From: Pezizomycotina sp. ARF18
Lineage: Eukaryota > Ascomycota
NCBI GenBank assembly: GCA_002224055.1
Contig: AZLU01000144.1
Location: 1 to 64,000, forward strand
Direction: 5' to 3'
Length of the DNA stretch: 64,000 nucleotides
Shown: one piece after another, positions 23,807 through 56,819 of the stretch
Position numbering within the stretch: the first letter of the stretch is position 1
Layout: every line of letters starts with the position of its first letter
The notes under the pieces: generated by a model
Seen by the model: the letters and a program-made list of their open reading frames with translations, nothing else
What the model was told of the DNA's origin: nothing
The model's database searches: none
Position numbers and translations under genes: made by a program

Positions 23807-24706
23807 TTAGAGTTCCCAGCACTCTCTCACTCGAGCGAATCCGCCAGCTTTTAAGTCACCCGTCTCAGAATCGTAACTGATGATCACGTCTTTGATTTTA
23901 AGACGGTCGGTGTGTGGTCGGGCTCCAAAGATGAACTTGAACTCCTTCCAGCCGAAACTATAGCATCGCCCGTCTTTAGTCATTACTTCGTAAAAATAAG
24001 TTCTGCGGTAAGGATAAGGATTTCCCCTACGTATGTTGTTTGAATGTCTTTATTAACCGTAATCTGTTAAGTTCAAGCGAAGGCAACAACCTCCGGGCTA
24101 CTACACAGATATCGGAACTCGAAATCCGTGTAAACAAGCTCAATATCCTCATCCTGTCATTTACGTCAACTGATCATGGTCCGTTACAAATGGAACAAAT
24201 GGGACACGAACTGATATTTCGCCGAGAGAGCTCTGTACGCCGTTTGCTATCGTCTCCGCATACTTAACGCGCGATGGTAGATTTCCTCCTTTGTCAATAG
24301 TGGATTACAAATAGAAGTTCGTCTGGATCGCTCGTCTTCCCTCTCGGCATTGCCGTTGCGTTCATGTATTTCAATGCAGTCTTCATGGATTCTGATGCGC
24401 TTGCAAGATTCGTAATGCGCAGCAAGACGAACAAGTTCAGTGCACGAAAGCTCCTTGAAATCTTCCTTTCGTTTGAAGGAAAGAATCTTTTTGGCAATAT
24501 AGGTGGGTCAACCTCTCTGGTGTTCTTCATCGCGGCCAGTTTCGTGCACGGCCACGCCGAAAATTCGTCTTCCGATAATGAATGGGTCGGTTCATTGTTG
24601 CTTTTGGATCGTTTAGTAGATGGGCCCTGCAGTGGCTCTGGCTCCGCCAGCTCTTTTCTCTTCCCCAGCGGCTGGGAACTCGATGCAGTCTTTCTTTTGA
24701 CGGCAT
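23807..24706 (-). pseudogene. Paralog family copy A (basic N-terminus, LAxHxE helix, two introns)
   Basis: The start ATG at 24706 opens MPSK. A one-base shift then gives KRKTASSSQPLGKRKELAEP and KRSKSNNEPTHSLSEDEFS, a Lys/Arg- and Ser-rich, NLS-like N-terminus. The first family helix is LSCTELVRLAAHYESCKR (near 24400-24450), followed by charged heptad-like sequence. The second helix TIANGVQSSLGEIS ends exactly at a phase-0 donor (GTTCGT). After the intron comes EFRYLCSSPEVVAFA (conserved segment 2). A probable second intron precedes YFYEVMTKDGRCYSFGWKEF, KDVIISYDSETGDL and GGFARVRECWEL, stop at 23807. The end matches copy C (RDIRIWYDERRREVEITGFY). Family function is unknown. At least one frame shift near the start leaves its coding status doubtful. 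Confidence 0.6.
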
Positions 24707-25329
24707 GGTGATATGTTCCAAATACGAGCAGGAGTCGAAACACGGAAGATATTGAATTCTGGTAAAAAAGATAAAAGGAATCAGCGAGTTCGGGGAGAGG
24801 GGGCTAGCGGGAGACTTATATGACCAGAAAGACGCGTGTTTAATTAAAGAAACATTGCGTACTTCGGCGATCACGCCCCTTTCATGTTAAAATGAAATTT
24901 ACAGCACCGGCGAATACCCAGAACTATCGACCGAAATGCCGCCGAGACCTTCAATCGAGCCTCCGTAAGGATCCGTCTACAGTTTTTGATTATCATATAG
25001 ATATAGCTAACAGAATCTCGTTCTAACCGCCGTATAGCTCGACCTCCTCGGTGGACAGGCATTTCAGCCAAATCTTCTCAGTGACGTCCATCAATCTGAA
25101 ATATTAGACGACCATGCAAGGCACATTAAGGAGAACTTTGAACCTCGATCTCTCAACATAGATTTTGGATGGAAAAGTTCAAGTCTTTACGGCCGGGGTC
25201 CCCGACTACTGACCTAGAAGAATTGACGAAGTTACTAGACTTCAGTGGCGATTAATTGCCTTGTCGTTGGACTCCGAACGACGTTGCTTCCTGCGCAAAT
25301 AAAAACCTACTGGCAACGGAGCAACAAAT

Positions 25330-25740
25330 GGCAGAAACAACCGTGCTACCCCAAGCGAATTCCGCGATCTGCGATTCAGTGATTCTTACGACAGGGCGAT
25401 GAAAATCAGGGACTCCATTTACAGGTCAATCCACGAGTCCTTTAGGTTTATGGTAATAATCTTCCTTCTTCTCAAGTTGAACCCGGAGTTCTCTATAATA
25501 GATGGACTTACCATTAGATTTCACGGCCACGTCCATCAGAAGCAGGTAGATGCTTTTCAACACAGCGTACCTATCACCTCGGAAGCGATAGGCAACCCAA
25601 AGGATGGGGAGAAATCATCACCGTGGTGCTCAGTCTCCGTAAGAAGGACGCCGATTACATAAACTACTTCGAAAGCAACCGCTCCGAGGATCACTCAGTC
25701 CACTCAACAGGAAGTCCATCACATGTAAGAAATTTTTTTT
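25330..25740 (+). pseudogene. Paralog family copy B (partial)
   Basis: The weakest member. MKIRDSIYRSIHESFRFM at 25399-25452 resembles the second family helix and is directly followed by a phase-0 GTAATA donor, the conserved intron site. An acceptor near 25517 leads into a frame reading GWGEIITVVLSLRKKDADYI and NYFESNRSEDHSVHST, compatible with conserved segment 2. Upstream, MAETTVLPQANSAICDSVIL from an ATG at 25330 is in another frame. No basic N-terminus or first helix was found. It points away from copy A, 0.6 kb apart, so A and B form a divergent pair. Confidence 0.35.
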
Positions 25741-26649
25741 TTTTTTTTATAATTCCTAATACGAATCCCCGGCCAGAGGTGCAGAATCCGTTATGACGTT
25801 ATGCACTAAGCTAAAAGAGTTACGAGATCAGATTTACAGATTCGAACTCTATCAAGAGATTCGGACGTTTTCCGTGCAATCATCTCAATAAAGACTTTCA
25901 TGAAGTACGTTTTTGGCTCCATCAGGTTTTTGTTCGGTACGAAGTTGAAAGTCGAGTAATCCATGTAGAAGGTACGAATCGAAAGCGTACCACTGCTTAG
26001 TTTCTCGGATTGCGTATCCTCAACCTGCTTAAGATGCAACCGCTGGCAATGTAGCATTTTGAACACTAATAGCCTTTTTTTACAAAAGAAATTTGGTATG
26101 TATAACTTCTATGTACAATATGTACAATACAATCCCCGGTCGAGATTCTATGACGCGTGATAGGTCGAGAAAGTGGCTGGCTCATGGCAACGGGTCTGAT
26201 GATTCTATATAATATTATATCATTTAATGTAGATATTATATCAAATTTACCATTTTCGTTCTTACATTTGCTAGTCTTAATCTTGCCGATCAAGAGGAAG
26301 ACCTCGTGACGATAGAAAATTTGTCCGTACAAGCATAATCTATGGTATCATGAATTCATTAATTAAGATTTGTAAACTATCGGTACTAACCATATACAAA
26401 TTGAAGGTGAAGATTCTGAACAGCTCAGGGAGCGCGCTAAATTTTTCATAAGTGCTTAAACTACTAGAAGAGCATAATTTACGACATTTCCTTAGACTCC
26501 TCGTCGAAGCTGGAGGCAAACGATCTGTTCGGTTTGGGCTTCTTGGCCCCACTACCTGAACTCGTGGCGTGCTCCCTACAGCCTGAGGACGGCTTGTATA
26601 TGTTCAGTGCTCGGACTATCCGAAATCCGCCGGCTCTGTCTCCTCGCGC
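25741..26649. other. Stretch with unrecognised minus-strand open frames
   Basis: Three consecutive minus-strand open pieces lie at 26340-26552, 26066-26332 and 25806-26066. The first contains YEKFSALPELFRIFTFNLY and the last FYMDYSTFNFVPNKN. This faintly recalls the fungal 2EXR layout (FxxLPxELRxxIW ... DFxxDxxYF), but key residues are missing, so I do not call a gene. Confidence 0.25.
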
Positions 26650-27889
26650 TCATCGACGTGAAGATTGCTTTATATCCGCCCAGAGCGCAACGCAGCTGCT
26701 CCAACTCGTGGCCGCGTAAATGACGCCGTTCCAGAAGCCTTGCATTGGCAACACGCAGGCGGCGACGATGCTGAGGAACGGGCTCGCTTTTCCGTGGTGG
26801 CGTACGGCCACAGCCTGTTTGCGGTTGACGGGATCCAAGTTATTTGCAGGCCGATGAAGAACAGCATCGCGCAGCGGGCGTATGCCCAAGCGGCCCTGTT
26901 CGCCTTCATGGCACTATTGTGCGCTGCCCTGTTTTGAGTTTGCGGTGGTGCTACTGGTGGAGCCGAAGCGGTGAATGTTGCGACTTTGGGCGTGGCCAAA
27001 CCCCCTTCGATATCTCCGTTGAAAGTGTTGCGGTTGGCGTCGAGCTTCTCGCCGCCGCTAATCTCGCAGCGGTAAGGATCCGCGGAGGACGACGATTCAT
27101 CCGGTCCCTGCGCTCTGACTGTGACTTGCGTGACGGTAGTCAGTTGGATACCGTCGTTGCCAGCGTTTCGACTTCGGCTGCGGCTATAACTATTGCTATT
27201 CGCGAACTTCCGAAGCGAGCTGCGCATCTGAATATAACGGTGCCAGTCCATGCGTATAAGCAAAGGCTAGCAGAATTATAACCCACACTGGAGCGTAGAA
27301 AAGCCCACTCGCAGGCTGTCGTACTCAGGCCGGATCCAACACCACAGGATCGCGTCCCCGTAGATCGGACCGTGGGACTTCGGGCTAATGAAAATAAGTG
27401 GAACGCGATTAGGAACGGTAAGCCGTAGGAGATCATTATATAGTATGGTTCGAGGCGGCGAAGTTGGTCAGCGGAGTACCGGTGGATGACGGTAAGGTAG
27501 ACATTAATAGCCATGCAGAGACACTGTCATACCTAGATTAGTACCCAACACCGTTGTAGAGAATATGGGTAGAAATTTCCCCAAGGTCTGTTGATACTTA
27601 CGAAGAAAGCATCCGCTGGGAAGAACATCTGTTCCAGAAAGGCCTGAAAGTTACACAGAGGACTCGTTATCCGCCCATTAAGCTGCTTGATAGCGTTTCG
27701 TGCGATGAGTGACGCCACGTTGCCCATGATGTTCCCCACGTTGCGAAAAGATCAAGCGGTTTACTGGCTTTCGGAACTTTGTCGTGAAATGAACGTCCCG
27801 ATAACAAAGCACTCTCCGCACAGAGATAGAGCTGACGAAATATGCTCGGCCAAGACTATAGCCTCGAGCTCCCGATGATTCGAAGACAT
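26650..27889 (-). pseudogene. cAMP-receptor-like (Dicty_CAR/Git3-type) 7TM receptor, shifted
   Basis: A fungal class of G-protein-coupled receptor related to slime-mould cAMP receptors. Start MSSNHRELEAIVLAEH at 27889. VGNIMGNVASLIARNAI and CNFQAFLEQMFFPADAFF (27610-27740) are TM2 and the conserved Cys/Met-Phe-x-Pro-A-D segment. After an intron, MAINVYLTVIHRYSADQLRR (near 27500) is the TM3 and intracellular loop 2 signature. Then come YYIMISYGLPFLIAFHLF, GPIYGDAILWCWIRPEYDSL (extracellular loop 2), a Ser-rich loop, AYARCAMLFFIGLQITWIPS (TM6) and SIVAACVLPMQGFWNGVIYA (TM7), ending ADIKQSSRR. All landmarks are in order, but the frame shifts at least three times, once in a short T run. Confidence 0.8.
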
Positions 27890-35256: not shown

Positions 35257-37560
35257 CTACCGCCTCTCAATCCTCTCCTCCAACGCCATTATTCCGCACG
35301 TCCTCTTGCCCCTATACGCATAAAAGCCTGTAATTTCTACCTCCCGCCTCCTCTCATCGTACCATATCCTTATGTCCCTGGTCGGTATATATCCGACCTT
35401 CCGACTATCGAACGGTAACCTACCAGCGCCCTCTCAAACTCTTGCGGATTATATTTCTTCGGCGTGGGCATGATGTCGCGGAGGCTGTAGAGGTCTAAAC
35501 TAGCAAGCAGGACTTCGACGTCGTCGACGGGGATGACGCTGGTGAAGAAGGATTCGGCCTTGTATTTTGGCTATTTTTATACAATTAGTAAGGGAATGAA
35601 AAGGTGGAGAAGAGGGAGAAAGAGGTTGCGTGGGGACTTACGAAAATTTTCATCGCACTGGCGATGCGAATGTAATGTTAATCTGCATCTGCTTGACCTC
35701 CCTTTTGAGGCAGCGGTCGGGGTTACGCTGCGGCGATAGAGGGACGCGAGACCGACGGGAGGGGATGAGCTTGGGGCGTCCGCGATCGTGTTGCTTCAGA
35801 TTTCATCCTCGCGGGTGCTTTATGTATCGGAGCGTTGGTACGGTGGAGTTCAGATGGACCACGAATTTCTCCCGATGAAAATGTAGTGGGAGATTCTTCC
35901 TTGATAACTGCCGCCGGCGTTTCATTAATATTACTTGTAACGTCTGATGTTGGCGGTTGTTGTGCTTTAGCGTTACGAAAGATTCAGGCTGCAGTTTTTC
36001 CGAAGGTTGCGATTGCTTGCTGGCGGTGCGTATGAGTTGGTCTATAGCTTCAGACTGGTCATCAGGAGTTACTGGAGCTCGAGCTGGAGCGACAGGCTTG
36101 GTTTGCAAGTCTCGGTAGCATCGAGTTCGGCTAACAATAACGGCACTGCTGCAGTTACCTCTGAAAATACCTGAGTAGCTGTGTTTGGCTCGGCTTTACT
36201 TGCAGTGAACTGGTTGGTGGTACTTGTAGCGAGACTGGTCGCTCCATAGGTGGTGCCGTCTCGACTATTGGTTGCGCTATAGAGGGTTGCACTTGGGGTT
36301 CTACTGCTGATACCGTTGGAGCGGTGTGGTCTGTCTGTACTGCCCGAGGTGCTACGGATGGCTGCGCCTGAATTGGCTGCGGTACTATAGGCGGTGGTGC
36401 CTGTAACGTTTGTGGCATCATAGGTAGTTGTGCTTGTGTCATTTGCGGTGTTACGGTCGACGATGTTTGTACGGTATACGTTGACGTAGTTAAAGGTGCC
36501 CCTCTTACATACGGTACTATAGTATGAGGTGCCGGCGCGACTTGTGGTGCTGGTGTGGGCGTTAGCGACCTTCGAGGTTCGAATATTTTATTTCCCATAT
36601 TGTCAACGAACAGCTGCAGTGACTCGCAGTGCGAAGCTAAGCGGAGGATCTGCTTCGGCGTAAGCTGCGCGAAATCCGAGTCCGTTTCAAAGGAGAGTAT
36701 CCTAGTCAGCAGTTCGCGATTAGTTTCGGGTTTTGTGGGTTGACGGGGTGGTTCTGGTGCTGGTGCTGGTGCTGGTGCCTGGTGGTGTATCGGAGCCTGC
36801 TGCACTATTTGCTGTTGGGGTCGATACGTCTCAGAGGGGCTTTGCTGTAGCGTATATACTGGTAGAGCGGGCTGGAGGGGCGGTTCGGGGGTTTGTTCGA
36901 GTGTGTATGCTGGTGGAGTTGCAGGCGGGCTGGGAGGCCTAGGGAGCGTTTTTACTGCAGTAACTGCTTTTGCCTTCGGCGACGTCGCATATGTAACCGG
37001 TTCTGGTGCGAAATTCGCGACTGGTAGAGGTTGTGTTGGTGGAGATGATTCTACTTTAGTCGCACTCCAACTCGTGTATAAATTCTCGTTAGACGTGAAG
37101 TAGGAACTCGCATTAGTACCGGCATTTGCGTTGGCGAGGACGTTCGTGTTGCTGGTTTTCAGTATAGACCTTGGAGTCGTTGATTCAGAACCCTGACACT
37201 TTGTTGCTGGAGGTTTATTATTGCAAGCGTTATCCATGTCAGATCTGCTACTCATCGGTTGTGATGATACTTCTTGACCGGGAGTCCTTGCAGCGAGGGC
37301 TTTATCGAGCAGTGATATCCCCATAGCCATTGGAGCATCGTCTTCCTCGACAGATGGACTACGAAATGCAATGTTCTTCTTTAATCCATCCGATTTACTG
37401 TCGCTCTCGTTTTTGAGCCCGCAGAGCCGGGTGGAATGGCTCTCATAGTCTTCCGACATTTTGGAAGCTTGGCTGGCGGAGGTGAGCACTCCGCCGCAGA
37501 GGCCGTTGGTACATCGTCATCGTCTAGGAATATGGAGTTCGCTTTCCGTTTCGTCAGCAT
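35257..37560 (-). pseudogene. Paralog family copy C (long Pro/Gln/Thr-rich member)
   Basis: Start ATG at 37560: MLTKRKANSIFLDDDD, then KLPKCRKTMRA, a basic/acidic N-terminus. After a one-base shift an unbroken 444-codon frame (36155-37489) is dominated by Pro, Gln, Thr, Ser and Val, with an Ala-Pro repeat from (GGTGCT)n near 36758-36777. Inside it, FAQLTPKQILRLASHCESLQ (near 36615-36670) is the first family helix. Later frames give KPVAPARAPVTPDDQSEAID, then IRIASAMKIF ending at a phase-0 GTAAGT donor at 35641. The next exon has SFFTSVIPVDDVEVLLASLD, PTPKKYNPQEFERAL, RDIRIWYDERRREVEITGFY and ends EERIERR. The last blocks match copies A and D. Three or more frame shifts; function unknown. Confidence 0.65.
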
Positions 37561-38900: not shown

Positions 38901-40673
38901 TTATTCATAGCCAGCCGCCGCAAGCGCCCTCTCGAAATCGCTCATAGCATACATCCCCTCTTCAATAAGCGCGTTGGTCTTGACGATGTCGAACTCGCCC
39001 CAGCATTTCAGGAAGTTCCTGTGCATTGTGGTCTGATATTGGAATGTTGTGTCGCCGCTCAGGAAGTACTTGTAACCGGAAGCCTCGCGTTCGGGAAGTT
39101 TACCAAACACCGCGGCGAAGCGTTTCTTGGTAAAGCTAGACGGAGAAAACCCCGTAAGTACTGCGCAAGATGGGGGAGTGAACCACGTGGGGGAAAAATT
39201 AAGACTTACACCATCAATCTCATCCCGGCAAGATGCTCAGAGCTGCGCAGCTTGAGCGCCTTCGCGGCGATGCCTATACTTGCACAATCGATCTCGTACG
39301 TCCATCCTTGATTCAGGGAGCCGGTCTGTAGAATTCGATTAGTAAATATTTGGAAAAATATCATTGTTACGGATTTTAGAGAAGTGGTACAAACCTTCAT
39401 CGCCATCGTGATACCCTCGAAGACCGAATGCCTGATGTGAAAGCTCCTCCAAGTCATCTCTTGTCGGTAAACCTGCTTGCACCTCATTCCGGCGAGCCTG
39501 AGATTCGTACTTAGCGTCGACACCTCGCGCTCCAAGTCTTGCCGTCTCTCCCTTTCCGAGTCTAACTCGTCTTGAATATCTGCGAGCTGTTCTTCGACCA
39601 TAGATGTAATCCTTTCGTTATCCGACGCTTCCACCCTCATGATGAGGACCCTCCCTTCCACCTCTGCTATATCTGTCTCCCTGTTATTTAGCTCGTGTCT
39701 GGTTGCTTCCAATCTGGAGTGAAGATCCTTCGCGTATTCCGCGACGGAGTATATTTCCTTTGCCGTAAGTCCCGCGATTTCGTGGTCGGTAGTTGAAGCG
39801 AGGACTTTCCGGGTGGTTTCATGCATCTCGGGTCGGCTAGCGAGAGAGCGCAAGGGGTTCTGCCAGTCGACCATTAAGGGTGGCGTGTAATTGCGTGCTA
39901 TGGAAACCGGATTCATCCATGAAGGTTCGACCTGGGCAGATTGCGAAGGACTCGGCTCGGGTGGGCTTGAATTTGGAACCATTATCCCCAGATGTAGCGG
40001 TCGGCTTTGCGGCGGTGGATCCTCTGACACTGTCGATGCGCCGTCGCTGTCGGTAGCATCTTGTCCTAGCAATGCTCGCTCGGCGTCCTCTATAGTGGCA
40101 ACTGCTGGAGGTGGTGACTTCGGCGAGGGCGGGGAAGAAGACCTGGAGCGGGACGTAGCGGAGGTCTTTGAGGTCTGCCCGCGTCAGGGGCCTTGGCTGC
40201 TTTCGATGTGCCGGAAGGAACATTGGGAGGCGGAGGTGGATCGTGGGAAGGACTCTGAGATTTCGCTAGCTTAGGAGCTACAGCAAGCGAGGTAGAAGTT
40301 GGTGGCTCCGCCGGTGTCGCAGGCGTCACAGCGGTCAAGGGAGAAACCGAAGGTCTGACGGGAGTCTGGGTGGCCGTAATAGGTACTGGAGGCCGCTTAG
40401 TAGGAGTAGGGGTTGAAGGAGGAGGTACTGAAGGTTGACCGGGAGGGCTAGATGTCGCGACGGCCACAGGTGGTTCTGCTTCCGGGGTCGTCCGCGAGGC
40501 GCCGGAGTGTCGAGCTTCTGCTTCTTCTTGCTACGCGTCGTTACGCCTCCTCCGCCTGCGTCGTCCGAAGCTGGAGATGAAGACGATTCTGATTTTGCCT
40601 TCTTGGCTGGCGTGTTCTCGGATTTGTCCTGTTCTCGACTCTTCGCCCGTTTCTTCCGCACCGGAGGCGCCAT
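38901..40673 (-). CDS. Paralog family copy D, best-preserved full-length member (basic IDR, coiled coil, 3 exons)
   Basis: Start ATG at 40673: MAPPVRKKRAKSREQDKSEN, PAKKAKSES, TRSKKKQKLDTPAPRGRPRK, several NLS-like clusters, then a Pro/Thr/Ser-rich linker. Exon 1 includes the first family helix GLTAKEIYSVAEYAKDLHSR (near 39730-39790) and a long coiled coil (about 39480-39720) with RITSMVEEQLADIQDELDSE and RERRQDLEREVSTLSTNLRL. The second helix HSVFEGITMAMK ends at a phase-0 intron (39326-39394). Exon 2 (39210-39325) has WTYEIDCASIGIAAKALKLR. A phase-2 intron (39136-39209) precedes VFTKKRFAAVFGKLPEREAS, GYKYFLSGD and SDFERALAAAGYE, stop at 38901. The two introns join perfectly in frame. Only the Pro-rich linker changes frame (two shifts). 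The product is probably nuclear by its basic clusters; function unknown. Confidence 0.7.
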
Positions 40674-41279: not shown

Positions 41280-41284
41280 ATAAT

Positions 41285-42448
41285 TCAATACTGATATACG
41301 TCATCCAGAACCAGGGTATCTTTGATATTGGCAGAGTTACAGTGAGCCCAGATGTAGATAAACATTAATTTCGCGGGCATCCCCATAGCGTTTGATGTTC
41401 TGGAATCATCAGTCAACCTTATCTCCCGCATTTCAACTCGGAGGATGTTTAAGGCGGCCGATGATACGTTCAACAAGTTCGTTATACGGGCATCAAAGCT
41501 CCATCACGAAGCTCATATAGAATCGAAGTAAATACACTTACGATAGGAACAACCGTCGTTTTATCATTCTGTGATTCTAAAGGTTTCTGTCTCGTGACAC
41601 AATGGGGATATAAGAAGAGAGACGCTGCATAGCCCCTTGATTCGTTCCACTGCTTTGTGAGCAGGCGTTGACCGCGTTACATATATCGATGTTATTGAGT
41701 AAATAGCTTACGAAGTTGATGGACTCGGATCCGGATCTGGCCACGGAATAACGTTCACGTCTCCTTTCAAACGGATCATTCCTCCACGGACGTCGTGATA
41801 GCCTTGGATGCTTCCTTCGTATATGGATGTCAACATTTTGTCATCCGTTCCATTCAAGGGTAAACCTATACAGTGGGTCATCTCGTCGGAGTGGAACCTA
41901 GATTTGCACCGGTATGACAATCTGGACGTTAGCGAGAGAGAGAAAAGGGAGAAACAGTAGAGGAAAACAACGCCATGCGAGAAGTGGGGGTAAAACGTAC
42001 GCGCGAGTCCGCAGGGAAGCAGTACAATCGTTAATTATATCTTTCTCGCTCTTCTTCTTCAGAGATGGTACTGGCTTTACGTTAAACGCTTCGATGACGT
42101 CTTCAATCTGAGCGCACGGGATCTGAACTTCCCAGCATTTCCCTTCCGTTCGGAAGGATGCACTGCTGCCTGTCCTCATTTCGAAGGTAGTCGTATCAAC
42201 GTCATAGCTGTGGTTGATCGCGTACTAAGGAGAAATAATTTTGCTATTAGGTGTAATGACTCTTGTAAAATCTGTAAGAATGGCGAATTTGCTTACATCA
42301 ATTGCCACCAGGACACGCCAAACCATTTTTTTGGCCTGAGCTTGCAGCGGCATTGGAGATGCTGCAGTTTCTGTACTCCCAAGGTCACCGCTAGGGTATT
42401 GGCTGGACGCGAGGTCACGTCAATCATCGCCGTTTCCTCGCTATCCAT
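41285..42448 (-). CDS. Paralog family copy E (short form, 3 exons)
   Basis: A short member without the basic N-terminus, first helix or coiled coil. Start ATG at 42448 (MDSEETAMIDVTSRPANTLA). After a one-base shift MPLQAQAKKMVWRVLVAID gives the second helix, which ends at a phase-0 GTAAGC donor. Intron 1 is 42225-42296. Exon 2 (42001-42224) carries GKCWEVQIPCAQIEDVIEAF (conserved segment 2), then SLKKKSEKDIINDC. Intron 2 (41922-42000) is phase 2, as in copies D and F. Exon 3 reads LSYRCKSRFHSDEMTHCIGL, IYEGSIQGYHDVRGGMIRLK and ends DPDPSPSTS at 41708. A further possible exon (41285-41476, MREIRLTDDSRTSNAMG) could extend it if the last codons are spliced at a GTAAGC. Function unknown. Confidence 0.55.
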
Positions 42449-44410: not shown

Positions 44411-45815
44411 CTATCCGCCCTGAGAAGCAGTATTAGATGCCGTTGCAGACTTTGTGGCCGATGAATTGCGCCACGCATTTCCTGTTCCAGACGTCGTATT
44501 CCACGTCCTGTTCGTTCCCGATCCAGAACCGGTCGTCACGGATGGCTTTGAACTAGAGATGATAGCCTTCGCTGGCGCTTGCGGAAGAGTACTAGCGTTC
44601 TCAACATCTAGACTGTAATTCTGGCTGAGTCGCTCCCTCGAGTCGGATCGCCCAACACCTCCTAGCTCAAAAGTGCCTTCGCCGTCCGTACCCTCGTGGA
44701 CGACTTTTTCTGCGATAACGTGCTGAGCCACTCCTTGCTCCGCTTCCAAATGCTTTCTAACCGCGGTTTCAATCTCGCCTTCAGGAACGCCTTGAAAGAG
44801 GGACAGCACGCAACGACGAGCGCAGACGTCTCCTCCCAAATTGACAAAAATGGTATCCATAACCCTGCCTTCCCTCCAACAACGAATACCATGAGGAAAT
44901 AAACAAGCGCATTAACCAAACTGATAAGGCCTAGGAAGAACATTATCGCAGCACCAATTTTCTTTCTCCGCGGCAAGTGCAGCTTCCGAAGTATCAGGAT
45001 AGGGAATAGGTATATTAGTAGGTCCGTTACGAGGTGCATGCTTAAGACGGCGGACGATATTCTGTAGTCGTAGCCGGCGCCGAAGCATTTGCGGTAGAAC
45101 CGGTCGAGACGCCAGTTGTCGGATATGTTTTTGCACCAGAAGAGGAATGTGCATATAGAGAATAAGTAAGATGCGAAGACGAGGACGACCAGGACGCGCA
45201 GGAGGCGGAAAGATCGAGGCATCGTGTAGTGGTTTATGATCTCGCAGTAAAAGGCGAGCATGGAGCCTTTGACGGCATATTGGCAGCTGAAGTACGATAT
45301 GCTTTGGACGAGTTGGAGCTTTTGGTTGGAAGGTTAGCTCATGGTATGCTGAGATAATTCTTTAATCTCTAGATGTCGGAACTACAAACCTTTGCAGAAA
45401 GAATGGCCTTTTCCAGCGTTAATAGATAGGCGGCATATTGCGAATCTGCCCCAGCCGATATCTTTCGGTTTCGCAAGAGACTTGAACGACGCAAAAGGCC
45501 CATGCGATGACGACGAAGGTATCCGCGAGGCGCCAGCGGGTCTGTACTGTCCTGAAGTATACTCGCAGTAGGACTAGCGACAGCGTGAAAGATATCATAG
45601 TCCATTCCGCAATCTATTCGAAATTAATGTCTGCTCACACTAAGCGAAACAAACAAACAAGTGGTGGAATGGAGGGAGTCTTTTGCTTGTTGCTTACTAT
45701 CAACTGCTTGTCGCGCAGCGACGTCGTCACGTACATTCCCCAGAACCGCAGTCTCGGATCCTCAACACAAGCCTCTTCGGTCTCAGCAGCATATGGGTTT
45801 TTTCGATGATGGAAA
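44411..45815 (-). pseudogene. Fungal rhodopsin-domain (SAT4-type) integral membrane protein 1 (shifted)
   Basis: A seven-TM protein of the fungal rhodopsin domain family (PF20684 type). EDPRLRFWGMYVTTSLRDKQ (near 45720) is a first exon. After an intron, EWTMISFTLSLVLLRVYFR and RLADTFVVIAWAFCVVQVSC form TM1-TM2. After the next intron, a long intact frame (45261 to about 44780) carries RVLVVLVFASYLFSICTFLF, CFGAGYDYRISSAVLSMHLV, then TDLLIYLFPILILRKLHLPR, RKKIGAAIMFFLGLISLVNA, and SALVVACCPSFKAFLKARLK. TD[LV]L[IV]YxxPIxxLR is characteristic. A frame shift precedes the Ser/Thr-rich cytosolic tail ending TASNTASQGG. No start codon was found upstream of the first exon. The family's function is mostly unknown. 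Confidence 0.75.
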
Positions 45816-47650: not shown

Positions 47651-47681
<31 letters not shown>

Positions 47682-47784: not shown

Positions 47785-49025
47785 ATGACTCGCCAGAAGC
47801 CGCGACCTCGTTCGCGCCATCATTCGCACTATGATTCCTACAGGCCTATCCCGCGATGAGGGAATTGTCCAGCCTATCGCTTTCCCCGGATCTCGTCGCC
47901 CGGCGCCGAATCGAAGGCGTCAGCTAAGTGGTAAGAAGCAGGGTATCTCAGTCTCTCAGCCTTCTAACCGTGCTCGAACTTCAAAGGACCTCAAGAATCA
48001 AACAAACACCCCGGCGAAGAATGGGGTGTTGGTGAACAGCCTAAGCCCGTTACTTTCGAAGTAACCATGGAGAACATTGCGATGCAAAGACATGCGACGA
48101 AGATCATCGATCAGCTGAAGCAACTCACAGCTGAGCCGAAGACCCAGCAGACTACGACAGCCCTTCTCCGACTTAGTAGGGAGTGCTTGGATACCCTCTC
48201 CGTCTACGAAGAGAAAAGCGGATCTGTCCTCACAGCTTTTCCGTGGGCTTCGTGCTATGGTCGAAGAACTTCTTTCGGGGACTCGCAGGGAGGTAGAGAA
48301 GGGTGCTTCCGACTGCGAAGCCGGATTTGCTCCGGAGTTTCTGAGGCTATGAGGATCGCAACGGTAAATACACTAAACATTACAAAGTCATCGCCCTTTC
48401 CTTCGTTGTGATCTTTGAGACTGACACATCTACGATATATGACTCACTGTAGAGGAAAATGCCCTTGGATGGTTCATCTGCGAATCTAAAGCTTCAGGAA
48501 AAGAAAGAATTACTTAACGGAGACTCAATCTCCATTTCCGATAGCAACCTGCTGTTGACTTGCAAAATAGGCGATCTAGCAGGTGTGGCGATTGCGCTTG
48601 ACATAGAAATGTTCTCCCTTGATTCGGATCCTGAGCTCAAGTAAGTTTACCATCCCACCCGACCAAGACTTGTAAGTACCGACATAGCTAACGAGTTATC
48701 TAGCATTACGCTTAGCATTGCTCAATTCGAGCGAGTTTGCGGAAGACGGCTCGCGATGCCGGTAGGCGCCATCGGAGGATTTCCTGGCATAATAGGCCTC
48801 GAGGATGGTATTGGCGTTGAATTCGATAAGGATGGCGGACTATGCGCGTTGAGGCAACCTACAAAGTCAATTGAAGAGCGTCATCTAGGAGCGGTTCTGT
48901 TTCAAAGGGCCGATAAATTTGAAAAGGATCACGGATTGAAGCCACGAAGAATGTCAACACGAGATGCTTGGGTGAAGAATCGTTGTTTCATTCAAATTGG
49001 AAGTATTTTTCATATAGATCATTAA
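47785..49025 (+). pseudogene. Paralog family copy F (3 exons)
   Basis: ATG at 47785: MTRQKPRPRSRHHSHYDSYR, then in a shifted frame RRPAPNRRRQLSGKKQGISV, a basic N-terminus. The first frame returns with QRHATKIIDQLKQLTAEPKT and the first-helix equivalent TTALLRLSRECLDTLSVYEE. A neighbouring frame holds the coiled-coil-like LRAMVEELLSGTRREVEKGA, then the first frame resumes at RICSGVSEAMRIAT, ending at a phase-0 donor. Intron 1 is 48364-48452. Exon 2 (48453-48640) has NLLLTCKIGDLAGVAIALDI. The phase-2 intron 48641-48703 joins perfectly to ITLSIAQFERVCGRRLAMPV, GIIGLEDGIGVEFDKDGGL and FIQIGSIFHIDH, stop at 49025. Exon structure matches copy D exactly. The only damage seen is paired frame shifts in exon 1. 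Confidence 0.65.
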
Positions 49026-49429
49026 TACAGTTCTTCCATCATCTAGAGAGGCAATTTCAAGCTTTGTCACACATCCCTGCACTGGACTGAAGTCAAGCTA
49101 TCTGAAGTCTAGACATGAGAATTTGCCCCTACCTCTAAAGGCGCCGGTGGGAGCGGTTTCATGGTCAACTATCTGTTCTGAAGAGCTGATGGATCATTCC
49201 TTCAGCATTTGTTCGGTTTTTTTCTATACCATACATAGAGATCTGACAGGTTGATGAAGGGAAAAAAACAAAGCTAGGATATAGATGGCAATCAACGCCT
49301 ACAATCATGGCACGCGAACATGTATCTACGGGCGCCCTTTTTCGACTCAGCTTCTTTAGTACAGTCAGTTGACATAATTGTTGGGACACTTACCTAAAAC
49401 GGCAATTTCTTCTATCTTAAATCATCGAT
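49026..49429. other. Downstream flank of copy F
   Basis: No coding signal. The sequence drifts toward the A/T block that follows. Confidence 0.4.
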
Positions 49430-49915
49430 AACTCACTCAATTATTATCCGATTTTTATAAAATTAAAAATTTACGTTTATATATATATATAATAAATACT
49501 AAAATTTTATAAAATTTTATCCAATATTAAATTTATATTATTTTTTAAAATTTTTATATATAAAAAAATCTATTATTTTTAAACTTATATTATAACGTCA
49601 ATATTTAATAAAAATTTATAGATTATATATTAATCTAACACATATTTAAATTTTAAAAGATTCCTCATAAATTAAGCTATATATATTATTTTAGATTTTA
49701 ACTAGTTTAAAAATAGCACGATTTTCGTGCAATTTCGCGGATTTTACATATAAAAAGTGCGTGAAGTACGTGTTTTTAAAAATATATAAATATTAAATAT
49801 TATCACGTTATATATTTTAACGAGTTTTTAAAAATTTTAATATGTATTAGTTTACGATATATATTATAACATATTTAAGTTTAGCTAATTTTATGTAGTC
49901 GTTGTTGCGTTATTA
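49430..49915. other. Extremely A/T-rich block (possible RIP-affected relic)
   Basis: Roughly 480 bases made almost only of A and T, with many TATATA and TTTAAAA runs and a TA microsatellite near 49477-49490. Borders with ordinary sequence are sharp on both sides. Such patches in ascomycetes usually mark repeats mutated by repeat-induced point mutation (C to T), but no open frame or terminal repeat survives, so the original element cannot be named. It separates converging copies F and G. Confidence 0.7.
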
Positions 49916-49949
49916 TTGATTGAAAAAGCGCAAAAATCATACTTTTGTG

Positions 49950-50740
49950 TGGGAAAACTGCCGTTTTGGGAAAGTGTTGCAACAATTATGTCAACTGACT
50001 GTATAATCCCCCTGACCGTCGAGCCGACGGCCAATACAGATGTGACCGATAACAACCGGCTCAGCAGTTTTCTGGCCGTACGTTACCGAAATCGTGAAGA
50101 GCCAGTAGTATCGAGGTGGACCGCGTACTTATGGCCCTCGAAGTCGTTGGGATACATGGGGATCTCTCCAAATCGCTTCTCAAACCCCTCGCGGGACAAA
50201 CTATTCGTATTTGAAGCCCTTCGTCAGTCTTGTTCGTGGTAATTTTCAATAGGATGTAGAAATACAGGAGGGGTTTCAATACACAAGGTTGAAATCTTGG
50301 GTTCAGTTATATCGTCGTCCCCGCTGAGAGCCACTGCGACGGCATGGCCGTCCTCGGTCAACAACTTGTAGGTGAACTTGTTCATAACGAAGGCCAGAGA
50401 CTCTGCTTTGGATCGCAGGTGTTTCCTCCTGTGCAGGCTTGATACATCTCCTTCTGTTATGTTGGTCCTGGTGGCATATATCTGTGTTGATAGATATTAT
50501 TAGCGGGCTCCTCAGACCCGGGCTATTTTTACCGTCTGGCGATGATGGAAATGAACTAACCGAGGCGACCCTCAGGGCCTCGCTGATCCCTTGCAACATC
50601 CTATCCTTTATATAATAGGCTTCATCGTTTTTGAATCTCTTTGTTAACTTGAGTTCTCAGTTCCTCTGTTGGGGCATCTTGGTTTTCTACCGGTGCATAG
50701 TACTGGACTGATACTAATATGTATTGATGGAACTAGGAAC
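49950..50740 (-). pseudogene. Paralog family copy G (partial)
   Basis: ELKLTKRFKNDEAYYIKDRM and MLQGISEALRVAS (ending at 50561) are the coiled-coil end and second helix, directly followed by a phase-0 intron (50482-50560, GTTAGT...ACACAG). Exon 2 reads IYATRTNITEGDVSSLHRRK, then AFVMNKFTYKLLTEDGHAVA and VALSGDDDITEPKIS (conserved segment 2). In a neighbouring frame downstream, NSLSREGFEKRFGEIPMYPN and DFEGHKYAVHLDTTG match copy D's FTKKRFAAVFGKLPEREASG. No N-terminal basic region or first helix could be tied to it, although 50.7-51.0 kb has weak minus-strand coding. It converges on copy F. Confidence 0.5.
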
Positions 50741-51199
50741 TTGAAAGTAGAACCTGGCGATTCTTGAATCGAGGAACAGCTAACCCAGCAATGCTACGTC
50801 GGCGCCTGCTTATATCTCCCATAACAGAGCAAATTATAGTAGGCATAAAGGGACGGCGTTTGATACTCCAGTCTGAGCTTGGAGTTCCATCTTCAAGATA
50901 CGGATCCACGCAACGCATTCCCAGACCGAATACTAACAGCGCCTTTCAGTTCGGACATGTAACGACCGATTTTAATACTCGTTTCATCTCGTAACCGCAA
51001 TAGAAATAATGCAAATACGCAGAAGAATAATGATTCGAGGTTAAATTTCAGGATAAAGCGACAAACCAACGATTCACGCAAGAATACCTATCGATATGGT
51101 TATTAAGCTACGTAGTATAATGGAACTATAGATGAAACTTGTGCTCGACAATGGTCAATCGAAAGTAAAATATATTTGCTTCCAGCGCTTCTCCTTACT
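50741..51199. other. Upstream of copy G, nothing secure
   Basis: Weak open frames on both strands (50733-50918 minus, 50764-50994 plus) overlap each other, and neither has a motif. Confidence 0.35.
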
Positions 51200-52424
51200 T
51201 ATCATCCGCAGTTTCAGCCACAGTAGGGCTCTTCAAGGTACCTAGTGGAAACAGAGGCCATCGCATTTTATTCTCCGCGTCCTGATCCCTGCCGATAGCC
51301 GCCCGAGCTTCTTGCAGCTGTACCCAGCTCCGGTCTCAAATCCTTTGCCTCGTGCCGAGCCACAATCGCCGTGCCGCTGAAATACACGATCATCCGATTG
51401 CTGTGAGAATATTAACCAAACCAAGAGCGAAGAGGGAATACGCCGCCAGTTGCTCTTTTGTTGTCGATTTTATGTTGCGAAGAACGATGAATGGGACTGT
51501 ATAGACGAGGACATCGGTAAATAGATGGAGTCCGAAGCCGGCGTTCGCCCAAGCGAGCTGGTAGCCACCGCAGATTGTGTCGAGTCGTACATCGAATAAG
51601 TCCAGTTTATTTTAATAGGAATACACTGCAGAAGAGTGGCTAGGAACTATAACCGAGTTAGACGATGTCATTATATTTTCGCGTTGTCGTCGAGTCTGGT
51701 CAGGGTGCTGAAGTGGGTACCTACATCATTTAAAGAGCAAGGAAGATACACACGGATGTCACAACGATAGATGTTTTAGGAAAAGACTGCCGCGGAGTGA
51801 GATCGAAATAGAAACAGACGAGGGCGTTTTGCAGGCGTAAACTATTTGCAATGTGAAGGATTCCCGCGTAATTTGCCTTCATTATTGGCGCGATCTCGGC
51901 GTCTGATTTGCCTTTTGGTAAGAGACGATGTCTCCAGCCTGTCGTACCAATGTACGTTAGACCGCAGCTGCTCACATACTGTCCAGCCTAAATACATCAG
52001 CCAGGCTGCCAGTACGAATAATTCTCTCCAGGGCTTGGATCGAAAGCGTAGTTGTACATAGAAGCGCCCGATGACGAACAAGTCGTGAACGCAAAGAGCA
52101 ACTACGAGAAGGTCTAAGTATAATCGGGGCTAATTATCAGTACTGGTTCCGTGATAAAATCACGACGAGGAGCAGTGAGAAAGAATTTAGGCTTACGAGA
52201 ACTGCTGGTGTCCAGGGATCGGTCATGACTGTAGAGACCAAGGTATCTACCTTCGGGTCACTTGTATAGAAACAAATATCTTCTTTTTGAAAAATCGGAT
52301 ACTTTTGTGGGCGACAAGGTGATTAGTGGAATAATTACTTGGAATAATTGACAGGATACGGCGAAATATTGCCCGTGGCACTCATGGAGGGACTTGGATC
52401 ATTTATAACACCATTGGATGACAT
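51200..52424 (-). pseudogene. Fungal rhodopsin-domain (SAT4-type) integral membrane protein 2 (shifted)
   Basis: Start MSSNGVINDPSPSMSATGNI at 52424. Small exons DPKVDTLVSTVMTDPWTPA and DYTLDLLVVALCVHDLFVIG follow, then FYVQLRFRSKPWRELFVLAA and WLMYLGWTV (TM2). GKSDAEIAPIMKANYAGILH is the loop before TM3. TICGGYQLAWANAGFGLHLF, TDVLVYTVPFIVLRNIKSTT and LAAYSLFALGLVNILTAI (51430-51590) give TM5-TM6, and the tail runs to about 51200. TDVLVYTVPFIVLR is the same signature as TDLLIYLFPILILR in the 44.4-45.8 kb protein, but the two share little else, so they are old paralogs. Several frame changes and an in-frame stop near the last helix. Confidence 0.7.
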
Positions 52425-53702
52425 CTTGGGGATTGACCATGATCCGCGTTTTGCGGAGGATTGGTAAAGCGGAGAAATAGCTGATACGTCCGTATGGTGA
52501 CACTGGGTCCGTTTGACCTTGACCCTCCTCATCGGATTTTCAATACGACGATGGATTTGCGTATGTAAATGAAGTGGCGTTCGGCAGTTGACGAAGTTGC
52601 TACCAACTCCTGTACCGTTTCTGCATTCCTGCATCTGAGTCTCTCCGCTTGGCTCCCTAAATTGCGCAAGCGTCAACCAGCAGCGAAACAGAAGCGAAAA
52701 TAGGCGAAGACATTAGATGTCCACTCGTGAGAGACATGGAACGCCTCTGTCTTAGGTGCTTAAACTTTATTCTTTCCTTGCTTTGGTGCCTTCACCTTGT
52801 GCGACATGGGGGTTATAACCCTATTGGCCTCCCGCAGCTCCGAAAAGGACCTTTTTCCTTTTCTGAGTTTTGTCAAATGGAACAGAGCCGTAGACTCTTT
52901 TATCGCTTTCGTAACGCACAATCGTTGCTTCGAAGCACGGTTACTTCTTCAGTCCCGGACGTCGGAGAATCTTGCAGCGCCTAATAGTAATACCAGTTGG
53001 CAAAGTATAAATGAAACATCAAGAAGTATTGTGAACTTCCGTTTTAAGAGAGCAAAGCGGGGTAGAGAAATGAGTTTTATGAGCTATTCCGTATCGCTTC
53101 TGTGGGTTGAATTGAAGTAAGCTTACGATACATCATCTGCGTCCTTCTCGACTAGGTTGTCGTCATGCACATCTATGCCTAGAGGAAATTCAACTAGCTG
53201 TAGTTACATTATGGCAGGAGTATGGATGTTCTATGCTCTGCAATAGCTTATAACGGCATCGTGCCTAGCTTTTACAATCAAGCATTCGGGCAGGATTACT
53301 ACCAACTGTAAATTAGGTTTTTGGCAGAACGGCGCCTTGACTAGGTATTGGTAGGTAGACTATTTTTAGAGTACATATACCGATAAATCGAAATGAAATT
53401 AGGAACGTGAGCGGCTGAGGTTCTCACTAAGGCTGTATGGACTTAAAAGAGTGAGACCTAAGTAGAATTTCAATTCCACAGGGAGTTATAGGTCGTGTGT
53501 AACTGTTTGAAACTCAATCCCTCCACTAATGGCTAGCCTTCCAATGTCGATATTATAAACCGCCTTTATCTCATCCGAAATAACTACTCGGCAACTCTCC
53601 TGATCCCAATGACAAACTGCATGGATCGGTATTTCCCCCTAGTTGCCTTTGGAAATCCCCACCGTAGTACCTAAAGATAGCGAATCTGTTAGTATCAGGT
53701 GT
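52425..53702. other. 1.3-kb stretch without a recognised gene
   Basis: A plus-strand frame at 52797-53120 (LLASRSSEKDLFPFLSFVKW) is open for 107 codons but shows no motif. The remainder is the upstream region of the rhodopsin-domain gene and the downstream flank of copy H. Confidence 0.4.
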
Positions 53703-54270
53703 TTACGTATCCATAATATCCATGTAAGAGATATACATATGTCTGTAAGACCTTATACCCGAATATTCCATATCGTCTCTGAAATTCCACCTAAGCACAC
53801 TGGCAACCACGTCCCTTGACAAACATGTTGTATAACAGCAAAGCCTTCTATTGATACCGTTGATCGCTACGTAGTCGTTTCGCGTTGTTAAGGTAACAAT
53901 GGAGCACATTTCCGTGTAATCGATGTCCATCAAGGCCTTCCATCCGGAACTAAATACGCCCTCACTTAGTAACGATACTGTTGAAAGACTTAGATCTCAA
54001 AATTTAGGTGCCAGACAAGTCTCCGCTTACATACCTGGTGCATATGCTTCACGGCATACGCGATACCTACGAGAATATTGGTTTGTAGATATTGGATTTG
54101 AATTTCCAATACTCTCTGTTCTCCAACGATAGAGGTAAAGATACGCTCGAGCTTTCTTGCCTTTGCTGAATCCTTCTCGCATTGGCATGTTGTTCGGCCA
54201 GCCACTCACAATGCGAGGCGAGGCTAATGATTTCTTCCCGGTTCAAATGGAGTGAAGCCTGCCTCTAAAA
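53703..54270 (-). pseudogene. Paralog family copy H
   Basis: The first helix is LHLNREEIISLASHCEWLAE (near 54180-54240), the closest match to copy C's LTPKQILRLASHCESL. One base later a second frame continues the heptad region, KARKLERIFTSIVGEQRVLE, into the second helix QYLQTNILVGIAYAVKHMHQ. It ends at a phase-0 GTATGT donor at 54034. Exon 2 has INRRLCCYTTCLSRDVVASV and LRWNFRDDMEYSG (conserved segment 2) and ends at 53703. The terminal FxxxFG segment was not found. The N-terminal basic region is not seen upstream, where a T run lies at 54314-54330. It is divergent from copy I. Confidence 0.55.
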
Positions 54271-54969
54271 CGGGTGGATCATGTTATAGCCTAGGGGGAT
54301 TAGAAGCCATCGTTTTTTTTTTTTTTTTTTAATTATCTATTTAGATCGTCACTTATAGTTAATTGGGTGTCCGCTGCTCTTGGGCGGCAAAAGGTACCGA
54401 TGAGATCAGTAATCAGCGAGCCTATCGATTTATAACGGCGCAACGTAGGTTGATGAAAGGCCTTTCGTAACAGGCTTTGTAGAACACCTTTCGGCTTAGA
54501 GCGGCAACAGCGTCAAAACGTGCAATTCTTCGACAATCGTGATTGCGGATTCCACTGGCATATAGAATCTGCAGTATAATTTGCACTTAAGCCGCTCTCC
54601 GTCGAGGCGGCAAGAATGCGCCACTTTTCAGCCACATCTTTGCGCCGCAAGAAACCTGACCACGTGAACACGCGAGGTTAAGACTCACGCGAAAATTCCG
54701 CGAAGCAATCCAAGGCAGACTCATATCAGGCTGACGCATATCTGAGGATTCATAAAGGATCACGATATTGTATATATATCGGTCTTCCGCTCTTTATCCT
54801 TGTTTTTCTTTTATTTCTTGCAAATATCAACATTCGCGTCGAAAGACTTTTGAAACTCGCATCATCGTTTCACGCGTCGAGATTCAAGTTTCAGCAGCCG
54901 CGACAATTATCTCGAAGGACCTAGAACGAGACCGAATTGGATCGAAAGCAAAAAGACTGAGAAATCAAA
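54271..54969. other. Divergent spacer between copies H and I
   Basis: Holds the putative promoters of both copies. A T run lies at 54314-54330. A plus-strand open frame from 54768 overlaps copy I's start in another frame and is not supported. Confidence 0.45.
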
Positions 54970-55489
54970 ATGGGCGAATACGGTTTCGGTATCAAGAACT
55001 GTTCGTACCCAGAATCGTCTCAGGGAACAATGGTCGGTGATACGGAAATGACTTCAGTCCTCAGTCCTAGCGAGATGTTCAGACAAATCCGCGTTCTCCA
55101 ACTGAACATACTGGAGGGAATCACAGAAGCCATGAAAATAATGGTAAAGGTAGGAAACACAAATTGTAAGTGTCCCCACCTAAAACGCAGCGCATAATAA
55201 CAGATGGCGTTGTCGATCATGTTTCGTAGACATGTCAAGCTGTGCCTGCGACGGTCCATCGCCACCGCAGCACGCAGCTCGAACAACTAAGAAATCCGTT
55301 TCTGCGGACGACGACGTCTTACACGTCGATAACACCCGCCTACACTACTTCGTGACGTGCAGGGACCCCGCTGTTGTGGCTGCGCAATACGCCTTCCTGA
55401 GAGCAGTCTGGCCTTCAGGGCTTACACGAGATTCAACCAAGATCAATTTAGGGATTCTTCTGCGAGGTTCCTTTCGTTCAGGCAAATAA
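54970..55489 (+). CDS. Paralog family copy I (short form, 2 exons)
   Basis: ATG at 54970 in good context (ATCAAAATGG): MGEYGFGIKNCSYPESSQGT, then SEMFRQIRVLQLNILEGITE and AMKIM, the second family helix, without the long basic N-terminus. Two donors are possible: GTAAAG directly after the helix (the family's phase-0 site) or a consensus GTAAGT 22 bases on. Only the latter (intron 55166-55229, phase 1) joins in frame to SSCACDGPSPPQHAARTTKK and LHYFVTCRDPAVVAAQYAFL (conserved segment 2), ending at 55489. In another frame the 3' side continues with FNQDQFRDSSARFLSF and RERRYGFFNPGAEAYDLNIV, like the terminal segment of other copies, so the original protein was probably longer. A short product of about 150 residues is encoded as written. 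Confidence 0.55.
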
Positions 55490-56819
55490 CAAGTGGGGGC
55501 TTATTATCGAGAACGACGTTACGGTTTTTTCAATCCCGGGGCGGAAGCGTACGATCTGAATATTGTTGCAAAATGTGCAGTTGTATACAAGCCGGAAGAT
55601 GCAGGGCTTGAGTGCAGTTGGTTTTGTTCCCTGCGGCGTAAACAGAGGCGTGCATGTTTACTTGTTTTCATGTTTCAAGCTTCAAGGCTTCTTTTGTTCT
55701 TTTCGCTTTTGTTAATGCTTCGTTATGGCTCTTATTTGCTTTTGGTCTTTGTTTTTTGGTCTTTGTAATTTTTACACTGGCAGTCATAGTGTTACTGCCG
55801 GTGTATTTTAACAGCGCTGGAGTAGTTGTTTGTTTCATTAGCTCTGTGTAATGAATTTAAACGCCCAGGCATTGCTGGCTTTGATAGTAGTATTTGGACT
55901 GTAAGTCACAGTGGAACATTGAACCTATATACAAAAGCATAAAGTCAACAATGAAGTGTTTGCTTATATGCACAACACATGTTTCAGGACCGCACTAATG
56001 CCTAGTTCGCGTTCGTGATGTTGGAACGCTTGCGTATTTTGAGTGCTGGCGCTTAAAGCCCGGCGCCCTGGTTGACGGGAATAGCCGATGTTCGGATCAC
56101 ACATGACAGTTTGACCTACTTATTCAGGCTACGTGCCGCACATTTATATAAGGCTAAGCATTTTTAGCCACCTCTGTGCTCTTTGCTTTTGCATGAAGCT
56201 TTCCTAGTCCTGGCATTTAACCGCCCAGCAGACATTAGTTCATATGCAAGATCAAATGAACCTCTTAAAATAAATGTCTATAAACAAACCACCAGCAAAA
56301 TAGTAGCTAAAACAGCTAGTTCATAGATACATGCTTTAAGCTCCGCCAAGGCGCAAGATGGTAAACTAGATGCCAACGGTTTAGCGGAAGAACTACTGCA
56401 GACGCTGGTTAAATTAAATATACGCCTATGACTAGCTTAGAGGCGCCACTAACGCTAATTTACCGTCGGTTGCATCTAATTTTAGTAGACTGGTTCATTT
56501 CTAGAATGTTGAGATATGTTCATGCTGTTCTTATATCTATCTGCCTTGGCCGCTCTCGCTCTACTATGCGATTCATAGTTTCCATCTTACAAAGTTCCCC
56601 GGACGATAGTCTTATAATTCGAAATCATCAACTCCACCAAATCGAAGCGTAAAACGCATCCTGCTGTTCATTTAGAGCTGGACTCTTCACCGACCAACTT
56701 TCTACGATCTTCAATAGCCACAGGTTCGCAGATTCTGGTCAACTCACATAGTCAACTTCCAAACTCGTCGCGCTTCTGTTCGAGCTCAGGCTCTCGTACC
56801 ACTTCAACAAAGGTTGATC
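55490..56819. other. Downstream of copy I; otherwise nothing recognised
   Basis: The first 130 bases carry the out-of-frame terminal segment of copy I. Hydrophobic T-rich frames near 55650-55850 are low-complexity and not supported. The rest shows no gene. Confidence 0.4.

Follow-up and report, generated by a model that had tools for sequence, protein, structure and literature searches.

A 32 kb span of the window (the whole stretch of 64,000 nucleotides analysed here), located on a contig from a filamentous fungus, contains about seven very distant relatives of a single uncharacterised gene. In seven copies, designated A, D, E, F, G, H and I, the modules are co-ordered on one strand; the number of members rises to eight if copy C, which has only helix 1 in common with A, D and H, is added. 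Helix 2 and a strand-helix segment, referred to as the middle segment, are common to the seven copies, the helix 2 of E being degenerate as judged by eye. A C-terminal segment of the FG type occurs in six of the seven, with an FG motif that is clear in A, D and G, weaker in E and H, and shifted in F. All 12 peptides quoted in an initial annotation of this DNA were found exactly as written, and the FxxxFGxxP end reported for D and G corresponds to an FG motif seen in both, as well as in A. The observation mostly stands, but not the number of nine members, as copy B, for which the annotation gave no coordinates, could not be placed, nor the evolutionary reading attached to it. Similarly, the module order described as shared holds for the seven copies, but neither for C, with its helix 1 only, nor for the unplaced B. 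The features are the following:

Copy A, 23813..24803, minus strand: the N-terminal part is basic; helix 1 (from 24450) and helix 2 (from 24265) precede the phase-0 intron, after which come the middle segment (from 24123) and the FG segment (from 23956); the frame is broken.
Copy C, 36158..37516, minus strand: long, proline-rich open frame with helix 1 (from 36664) only.
Copy D, 38901..40673, minus strand: one complete gene with all modules, made of five exons (40429-40673, 40282-40354, 39395-40174, 39210-39325, 38901-39135) with intron phases 2, 0, 0 and 2; 482 amino acids.
Copy E, 41708..42326, minus strand: a degenerate helix 2, then the phase-0 intron leading to the middle segment (from 42134) and the phase-2 intron leading to an FG-like exon (from 41896).
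Copy F, 48040..48905, plus strand: a helical-looking N-terminal part and helix 2 (from 48310), a phase-0 intron modelled at 48364-48452, the middle segment (from 48543), then a phase-2 intron with two possible acceptors and an FG-like exon offset by two residues.
Copy G, 50083..50623, minus strand: helix 2, a phase-0 intron modelled at 50482-50560, the middle segment, a phase-2 intron modelled at 50201-50284 and the FG exon.
Copy H, 53491..54255, minus strand: helix 1 (from 54246) is followed by helix 2 (from 54091) and by the middle segment (from 53843), which the phase-2 intron separates from an FG-like exon (from 53669).
Copy I, 54970..55446, plus strand: helix 2 (from 55093), separated from the middle segment (from 55340) by an intron whose best candidate is of phase 1.

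Copy D alone unites every module in one complete, well-scoring gene (ab initio gene model score 43.2). According to the gene model and the module-site scan, it starts with a basic N-terminus with an RGRP core, a Pro/Ser-rich linker, helix 1 (from 39769) and a coiled-coil-like stretch, followed by helix 2 (from 39439), the phase-0 intron, the middle segment (from 39304), the phase-2 intron and the FG exon (from 39134). Judging from its sequence, the product of D is most likely a nuclear protein. The basic stretch with which it starts, recognised by eye, would hold DNA or chromatin through its AT-hook-like RGRP core, a motif located within the basic patch that 3.3% of 1,500 random positions also have upstream of them. 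Bipartite nuclear-localisation patterns were discarded as evidence because 55% of random positions likewise have one upstream, so that the control is not exceeded. The linker is probably disordered, helix 1, the coiled coil and helix 2 may allow two molecules to pair, and the small C-terminal domain, a strand-Cys-helix unit followed by the FG segment, could bind a partner. For this predicted protein we infer, weakly, a nuclear site, a dimeric state and the binding of a partner. AT-hook and coiled-coil nuclear proteins offer a class for comparison, which D resembles in its RGRP core and its coiled-coil-like stretch (weak, sub-threshold Pfam matches), whereas helix 1, helix 2 and the FG segment have no credible match and no Pfam cut-off is passed.

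The other copies are less complete. The frame breaks of A and H are beyond bridging by any intron, and could partly consist of assembly errors; in H, the frame of helix 1 differs from that of helix 2 and the gene model score is close to 0. In the gene models of E and G no N-terminal part is recognised, helix 1 was not recognised by the module-site scan in E, F, G and I, and the C-terminal exon of I was not identified. The two introns of F score 9.0 and 11.5 (acceptor at 48715), even though the gene finder's own models of F skip the phase-2 intron. Copy C has a gene model score of 19.7 with default settings and up to 44.8 with lenient ones, and the best 14 sites listed for each module include neither a helix 2 nor a middle segment in it.

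The first helix attributed by the initial annotation to C, H, D and A is indeed common to these four copies. Searched against the contig (105 kb) and a further 200 kb from this genome, helix 1 of C found A (6e-4) and D (0.067) as its best non-self matches, while H came fifth (0.78), behind two background matches. Within the window, a profile built from D and C alone retrieved A (0.0098) and H (0.019), as compared to 2.3 for the best reversed-sequence control. In the entire 46.4-Mb genome, the C query recognised, apart from itself, A alone (E 0.09) up to E 10, only two candidates having passed the first filter of the search program. The unrecognised helix 1 of E, F, G and I, together with a copy C reduced to helix 1, is what could be expected from exon or domain shuffling, in which a small reusable cassette extending from helix 2 to the FG exon has spread locally and the copies are not whole-gene paralogues. 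Such a scenario is nevertheless distinctly unlikely, in view of the helix 1 common to A, C and D and of the presence of all the modules, ordered on one strand, in A, D and H.

With respect to helix 2, the held-out copies D, F, G, H and I each rank above all of the 2,130-2,263 scored sites outside 22-57 kb. Inside this interval, other sites equal or exceed the held-out copy for D (5/330), G (2/340) and F (2/302), none for I and H, and the high-scoring ones listed adjoin middle segments that were used in training. Conversely, HMMER leave-one-out on helix 2 (18 columns) recovered I (E 0.066) but not D, F, G and H, and recovered no held-out copy from the middle and C-terminal segments, with A in a superseded register. 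Taken alone in a Cys-anchored register, the middle segment is equalled or surpassed by 9 (F), 6 (I) and 16 (H) outside sites, as well as by 224 (D) and 153 (G). Among the spliced models running from helix 2 to the end, for which splice sites were chosen with the motifs already known, 9 pairs out of 21 reach p<=0.05, versus 12 out of 300 control pairs. Support for shared descent is weakest for A, and for E in the held-out scan.

The profile check of relatedness is thus divided: HMMER leave-one-out mostly failed, which comes close to the outcome that the initial annotation itself had named as its refutation, i.e., a profile alignment unable to relate the copies beyond chance, whereas the held-out ranks and the shuffling of spliced pairs exceed chance. 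The HMMER failures are what would be seen if look-alike open reading frames had simply been picked out by the earlier reader. This already disfavoured explanation appears very improbable in the light of the held-out ranks, the shuffled spliced models and the shared intron places, and the common descent originally proposed, as opposed to chance reading frames, is retained on these same three grounds.

Two introns occur in shared places. After helix 2, a phase-0 intron scores well in A, D, E, F and G, while the best candidate is of phase 1 in I and H (8.2 versus 6.6 for phase 0 in H), so that the eight copies previously credited with a phase-0 intron were an overstatement, five being best supported. 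Before the FG exon, a phase-2 intron scores well in D, E and F, as had been stated, but also in G and H (the latter taken from a list of candidate introns), which brings the count to five; it scores poorly in A (3.7). Using a stop-free codon score, the proposed frame comes out best in only 13 of 22 segments (p 0.012), compared to 339 of 1,259 in the control, which counts against the models.

Some splice and coding signals bear on the idea that the family is alive and under diversifying selection, each copy being functional with a different partner. The good splice signals of E, F and G, which should have been lost in long-dead copies, and the C-terminal exon of G and middle exon of E, for which the proposed frame is the one with the best codon usage, speak in its favour. 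It is still an unlikely reading, taking into account the frame breaks of A and H, the score of H, the truncated models of E and G, and the position of D as the sole strong complete model among the ordered copies. The diversifying pressure formerly suggested is accordingly unsupported; decay is suggested instead, because A and H are frame-broken and all modules are united in one well-scoring gene only in D.

Beyond the cluster, single-sequence searches with D, helix 1 of C, F and G revealed no credible relative elsewhere in the 46.4-Mb genome. Neither the spliced D, E and G nor pieces of A, C, F, H and I exceeded a curated cut-off in Pfam-A (2025 copy), the sub-threshold matches comprising several coiled-coil and other families for D, DUF2110_N for G and Imm32 for H (both E 0.19). 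A phmmer search of PDB chains with D devoid of its N-terminus (276 amino acids) gave 0 matches up to E 10. The qualification of the family as unrecognised is thus upheld for Pfam-A and, by sequence and for D only, for PDB chains; no such family is named in the titles or opening abstract lines of the papers listed by a literature search. A dinucleotide bias of the RIP type affects 2 of the 17 2-kb bins at 22-57 kb, versus 22 of 100 background bins, and C alone among the eight copies passes both cut-offs. RIP-driven decay was consequently rejected, the bias not being enriched over the background. The scattering of broken-frame copies on both strands would suit relics of a domesticated or transposon-borne gene, an origin that looks very unlikely given the introns in shared places, the lack of RIP-type enrichment and the absence of copies found elsewhere by single-sequence search.

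The cluster looks like the result of ordinary local gene duplication and loss. It combines descent beyond chance, shared introns and a single locus, with no member found elsewhere by single-sequence searches, all of which are expected from birth-and-death evolution. Our preferred reading, with a probability of about 0.5, is that of an old local birth-and-death family, in which D is the intact member, a probable nuclear coiled-coil gene, and the other copies are mostly partial or decayed. The family would have grown by duplication on this contig, and we infer local copying as the route of duplication and decay as the fate of most copies, now partial or decaying. The two introns, phase 0 after helix 2 and phase 2 before the FG exon, would be ancestral and have outlived, in the other copies, sequences that have become nearly unrecognisable. 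A more tentative possibility is an undescribed fungal domain made of helix 1, a coiled coil, helix 2 and a strand-Cys-helix plus FG segment, with two conserved introns, in a fast-diverging nuclear family confined to one locus, which may be likened to fast-evolving chromatin or conflict genes.

Families of unknown function are common in fungi, and the cluster is one of them whether it is read as a domain or as decay. If the domain is real and undescribed, a first profile of an orphan family of fungi can be drawn from its copies, which also illustrate that descent may still be read from the places of introns once sequence similarity has faded; if decay prevails, they offer a compact example of a local family dying in a fungal genome. 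Birth-and-death evolution of paralogues in fungi is reported for the class II hydrophobins (PMC2253510), which the preferred birth-and-death reading resembles in this respect. Hydrophobins, however, are Cys-rich surface proteins, whereas the present family has no known fold or function.

Some additional sites were discarded. A match to the C-terminus of D at 61229-61510 belongs to a small Cys-rich gene, of which it covers some of the 3' part, and was attributed to chance by eye. The site at 19943, minus strand, is a top-3 outside site for 4 of the 5 held-out models (12.0-16.9), yet it occurs in no module's best 14 and no module chain is visible by eye. Three outside matches of the helix-2 pattern (L008-L010) have no family context in the open frames inspected. 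The best unassigned site, 25402 on the plus strand, considered as a possible copy B, scores 11.6-15.6 in the five lists that show it versus 11.9-13.1 for the best background listed, which does not distinguish it from background, and has no Pfam match up to E 1. On the same contig, the F-box, Fung_rhodopsin and C2H2 families likewise occur as several diverged neighbours, these being known Pfam families.

The protein family found on contig 144 (AZLU01000144.1, 105,268 bases of a 46.4-Mb genome in 408 contigs, bases 1-64000 forming the window) is genuine, very old and local, and is unrecognised by the searched libraries, although it has fewer members than the nine paralogues (copies A-I) proposed in the initial annotation. 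Each copy was divided into four modules, namely helix 1, helix 2, a middle segment and an FG segment. Copy B was never placed. None of the copies reached the Pfam cut-off and the PDB sequence search with copy D minus its N-terminus gave no match, in agreement with the initial statement that no described family with this layout is known. The placed copies, with their cysteine-anchored middle segments, are as follows:

23813..24803, minus strand: copy A, RYLCSSPEVVAF
36158..37516, minus strand: copy C, helix 1 only
38901..40673, minus strand: copy D, IDCASIGIAAKAL
41708..42326, minus strand: copy E, IPCAQIEDVIEAF
48040..48905, plus strand: copy F, TCKIGDLAGVA
50083..50623, minus strand: copy G, anchor C replaced by T
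53491..54255, minus strand: copy H, YTTCLSRDVVAS
54970..55446, plus strand: copy I, YFVTCRDPAVVAA

Among spliced models running from helix 2 to the end in seven copies, built with splice choices made when the motifs were already known, 9/21 pairs were significant by shuffling (p<=0.05) versus 12/300 pairs of background open frames, the module register being imperfect in some of the alignments (start of D-E, start of D-G, and D-I). The nine significant pairs link all seven copies, A being joined via I alone (p 0.019). The cysteine anchoring of the middle segment was suggested by a weak match at 24076-24156 (E 0.66) to a model made without E. Using this register, a joint position-specific score of helix 2, donor and middle segment, trained by leave-one-out on D, F, G, H and I, placed each held-out copy above all 2,130-2,263 sites outside 22-57 kb. 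By helix 2 alone, all five likewise outranked the outside sites; the middle segment alone was weaker, equalled or exceeded by 224 outside sites for D, 153 for G, 9 for F, 6 for I and 16 for H. Inside 22-57 kb, other sites reached the held-out score for D (5/330), G (2/340) and F (2/302), and none did for I (0/331) or H (0/296); the rivals among those listed adjoin middle segments used in training. In a wider scan including A and E, both held-out copies were absent from the best nine rows.

HMMER leave-one-out recovered I alone with helix 2 (18 columns) and no copy with the middle and C-terminal segments, and these are real failures. A D+C profile of helix 1 did recover A (0.0098) and H (0.019) in the window, versus 2.3 for the best reversed-sequence control, and a D+C+A profile recovered H at 0.014 (control 1.4). 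With single queries against a set made up of the contig and 200 kb of background sequence, the top non-self helix-1 matches of C are A and D, each of which has C as its own top match; two background matches rank above H with the C query, and one ranks above C with the H query. For helix 2 in the same set, H and I are reciprocal best non-self matches (0.13 and 0.055), the best match of G is F (0.19), and that of F is a site at 52592 (0.078), followed by G (0.13).

Whole-genome single-sequence searches with D, its N-terminus, C helix 1, F and G returned no credible match beyond contig 144, the lowest E values there being 0.126, 0.72 and 0.76. C helix 1 retrieved only C and A up to E 10, just two candidates having got through the tool's first look. 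Distant copies, beyond single-sequence detection, may occur elsewhere in the genome.

Splice sites were scored with generic ascomycete weights in place of trained ones, alternative introns being compared for A, E, H and I only and the introns of D, G and E being taken from gene models. The phase-0 intron after helix 2, formerly attributed to eight copies, is shared by fewer: good scores were obtained for D (7.8), G (8.3), E (8.2), F (9.0) and A (6.8), whereas phase 1 is best in H (8.2 versus 6.6) and I (7.5 versus 3.5). The phase-2 intron before the FG exon scores well in D (8.8), E (10.5) and F (11.5), as proposed, and the earlier count was too low, since G (8.5) and H (9.1) have it too. Another phase-2 acceptor scores 11.1 in E; in F, a second in-frame acceptor lies 12 bases upstream of the scored one (48715); in A the best score is only 3.7. 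An FG-exon pattern composed after viewing A, D, E, G and H (phase-2 acceptor, then phi-x4-[FM]-x3-[FIL]-G) finds exactly these five in the contig, and two matches in the 200-kb background; once acceptor and branch-site cut-offs are imposed the counts are three versus one, and with a looser pattern 10 versus 15. A phase-0 GT lies within 4 codons of the helix-2 pattern, likewise derived from the copies themselves, in 5/5 contig matches versus 0/3 in the background.

Judged by gene models, frame joins and codon usage, copy D appears to be intact, A and H appear broken, and the remaining copies partial. Ab initio gene prediction, with training on background sequence, gave D 482 residues in five exons, including both family introns (score 43.2), and by default gave C three exons (19.7), E phases 0 and 2 at just 1.9, and G the last two exons only (5.9). 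Under lenient settings the phase-0 intron was added in G, both introns were retained in E, one of the two F models contained the phase-0 intron and neither the phase-2 intron, I retained a phase-0 intron leading to a different frame, and H, given a phase-1 intron, reached a score of 0.1. The two helices of A, like those of H, lie in different frames, and an intron of 35-200 bases could not bridge them. Of 22 segments, 13 have a codon usage that favours the proposed frame (p 0.012; control ORFs 339/1,259), including 3/3 in D. The family shows signs of decay, and not of the diversifying pressure first proposed. RIP-type bias, judged by cut-offs in 2-kb bins, is no commoner here (2/17) than in background (22/100); C alone passes among eight copies.

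Copy D contains RGRPRK within a basic N-terminus, then a linker rich in Pro and Ser and a stretch resembling a coiled coil. NLS-like patterns occur no less often upstream of random positions (55%), where RGRP is less frequent (3.3%). As a weakly held best guess, the product might be a nuclear, dimeric, DNA-associated protein.

Other genes are repeated on the contig too, namely F-box and C2H2-like ones, and Pfam identifies a Fung_rhodopsin gene (PF20684, E 8e-14), which together with the shortness of the introns suggests a filamentous ascomycete. The surrounding features are:

6392-6529, plus strand: F-box-like stretch, below the Pfam cut-off
8271-8996, minus strand: HD-domain gene (PF01966, E 2e-8), intact, with a single exon
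22211-22330, minus strand: F-box-like stretch, below the cut-off
23004-23339, minus strand: F-box-like stretch adjoining copy A, the sole one of three above the cut-off
44665-45261, minus strand: Fung_rhodopsin (PF20684) copy, upstream of E on the same strand
49400-49950: A+T-rich block (GC 0.17) between F and G, clear pass for RIP-type dinucleotide bias
51393-51611, minus strand: Fung_rhodopsin (PF20684) copy in pieces, sub-threshold (E 4e-5), upstream of G on the same strand
60747-61350, plus strand: small Cys-rich gene seen by eye, two CC pairs, at least two introns, possibly secreted
63124-64067, minus strand: C2H2 zinc-finger-like gene, just under the cut-off
contig 68902-69811: C2H2 zinc-finger-like gene, above the cut-off
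contig 70071-70975, 83945-84510 and 85678-86228: C2H2 zinc-finger-like genes, by eye

The rhodopsin-like pieces that lie upstream of both E and G, in the same orientation, suggest that copying may have involved blocks in place of single genes. ORFs at or beside the F-box-like stretches 6392-6529 and 22211-22330 have a DPIAFRS stretch in common (E 0.009), and the C2H2 zinc-finger-like series extends past the window end.
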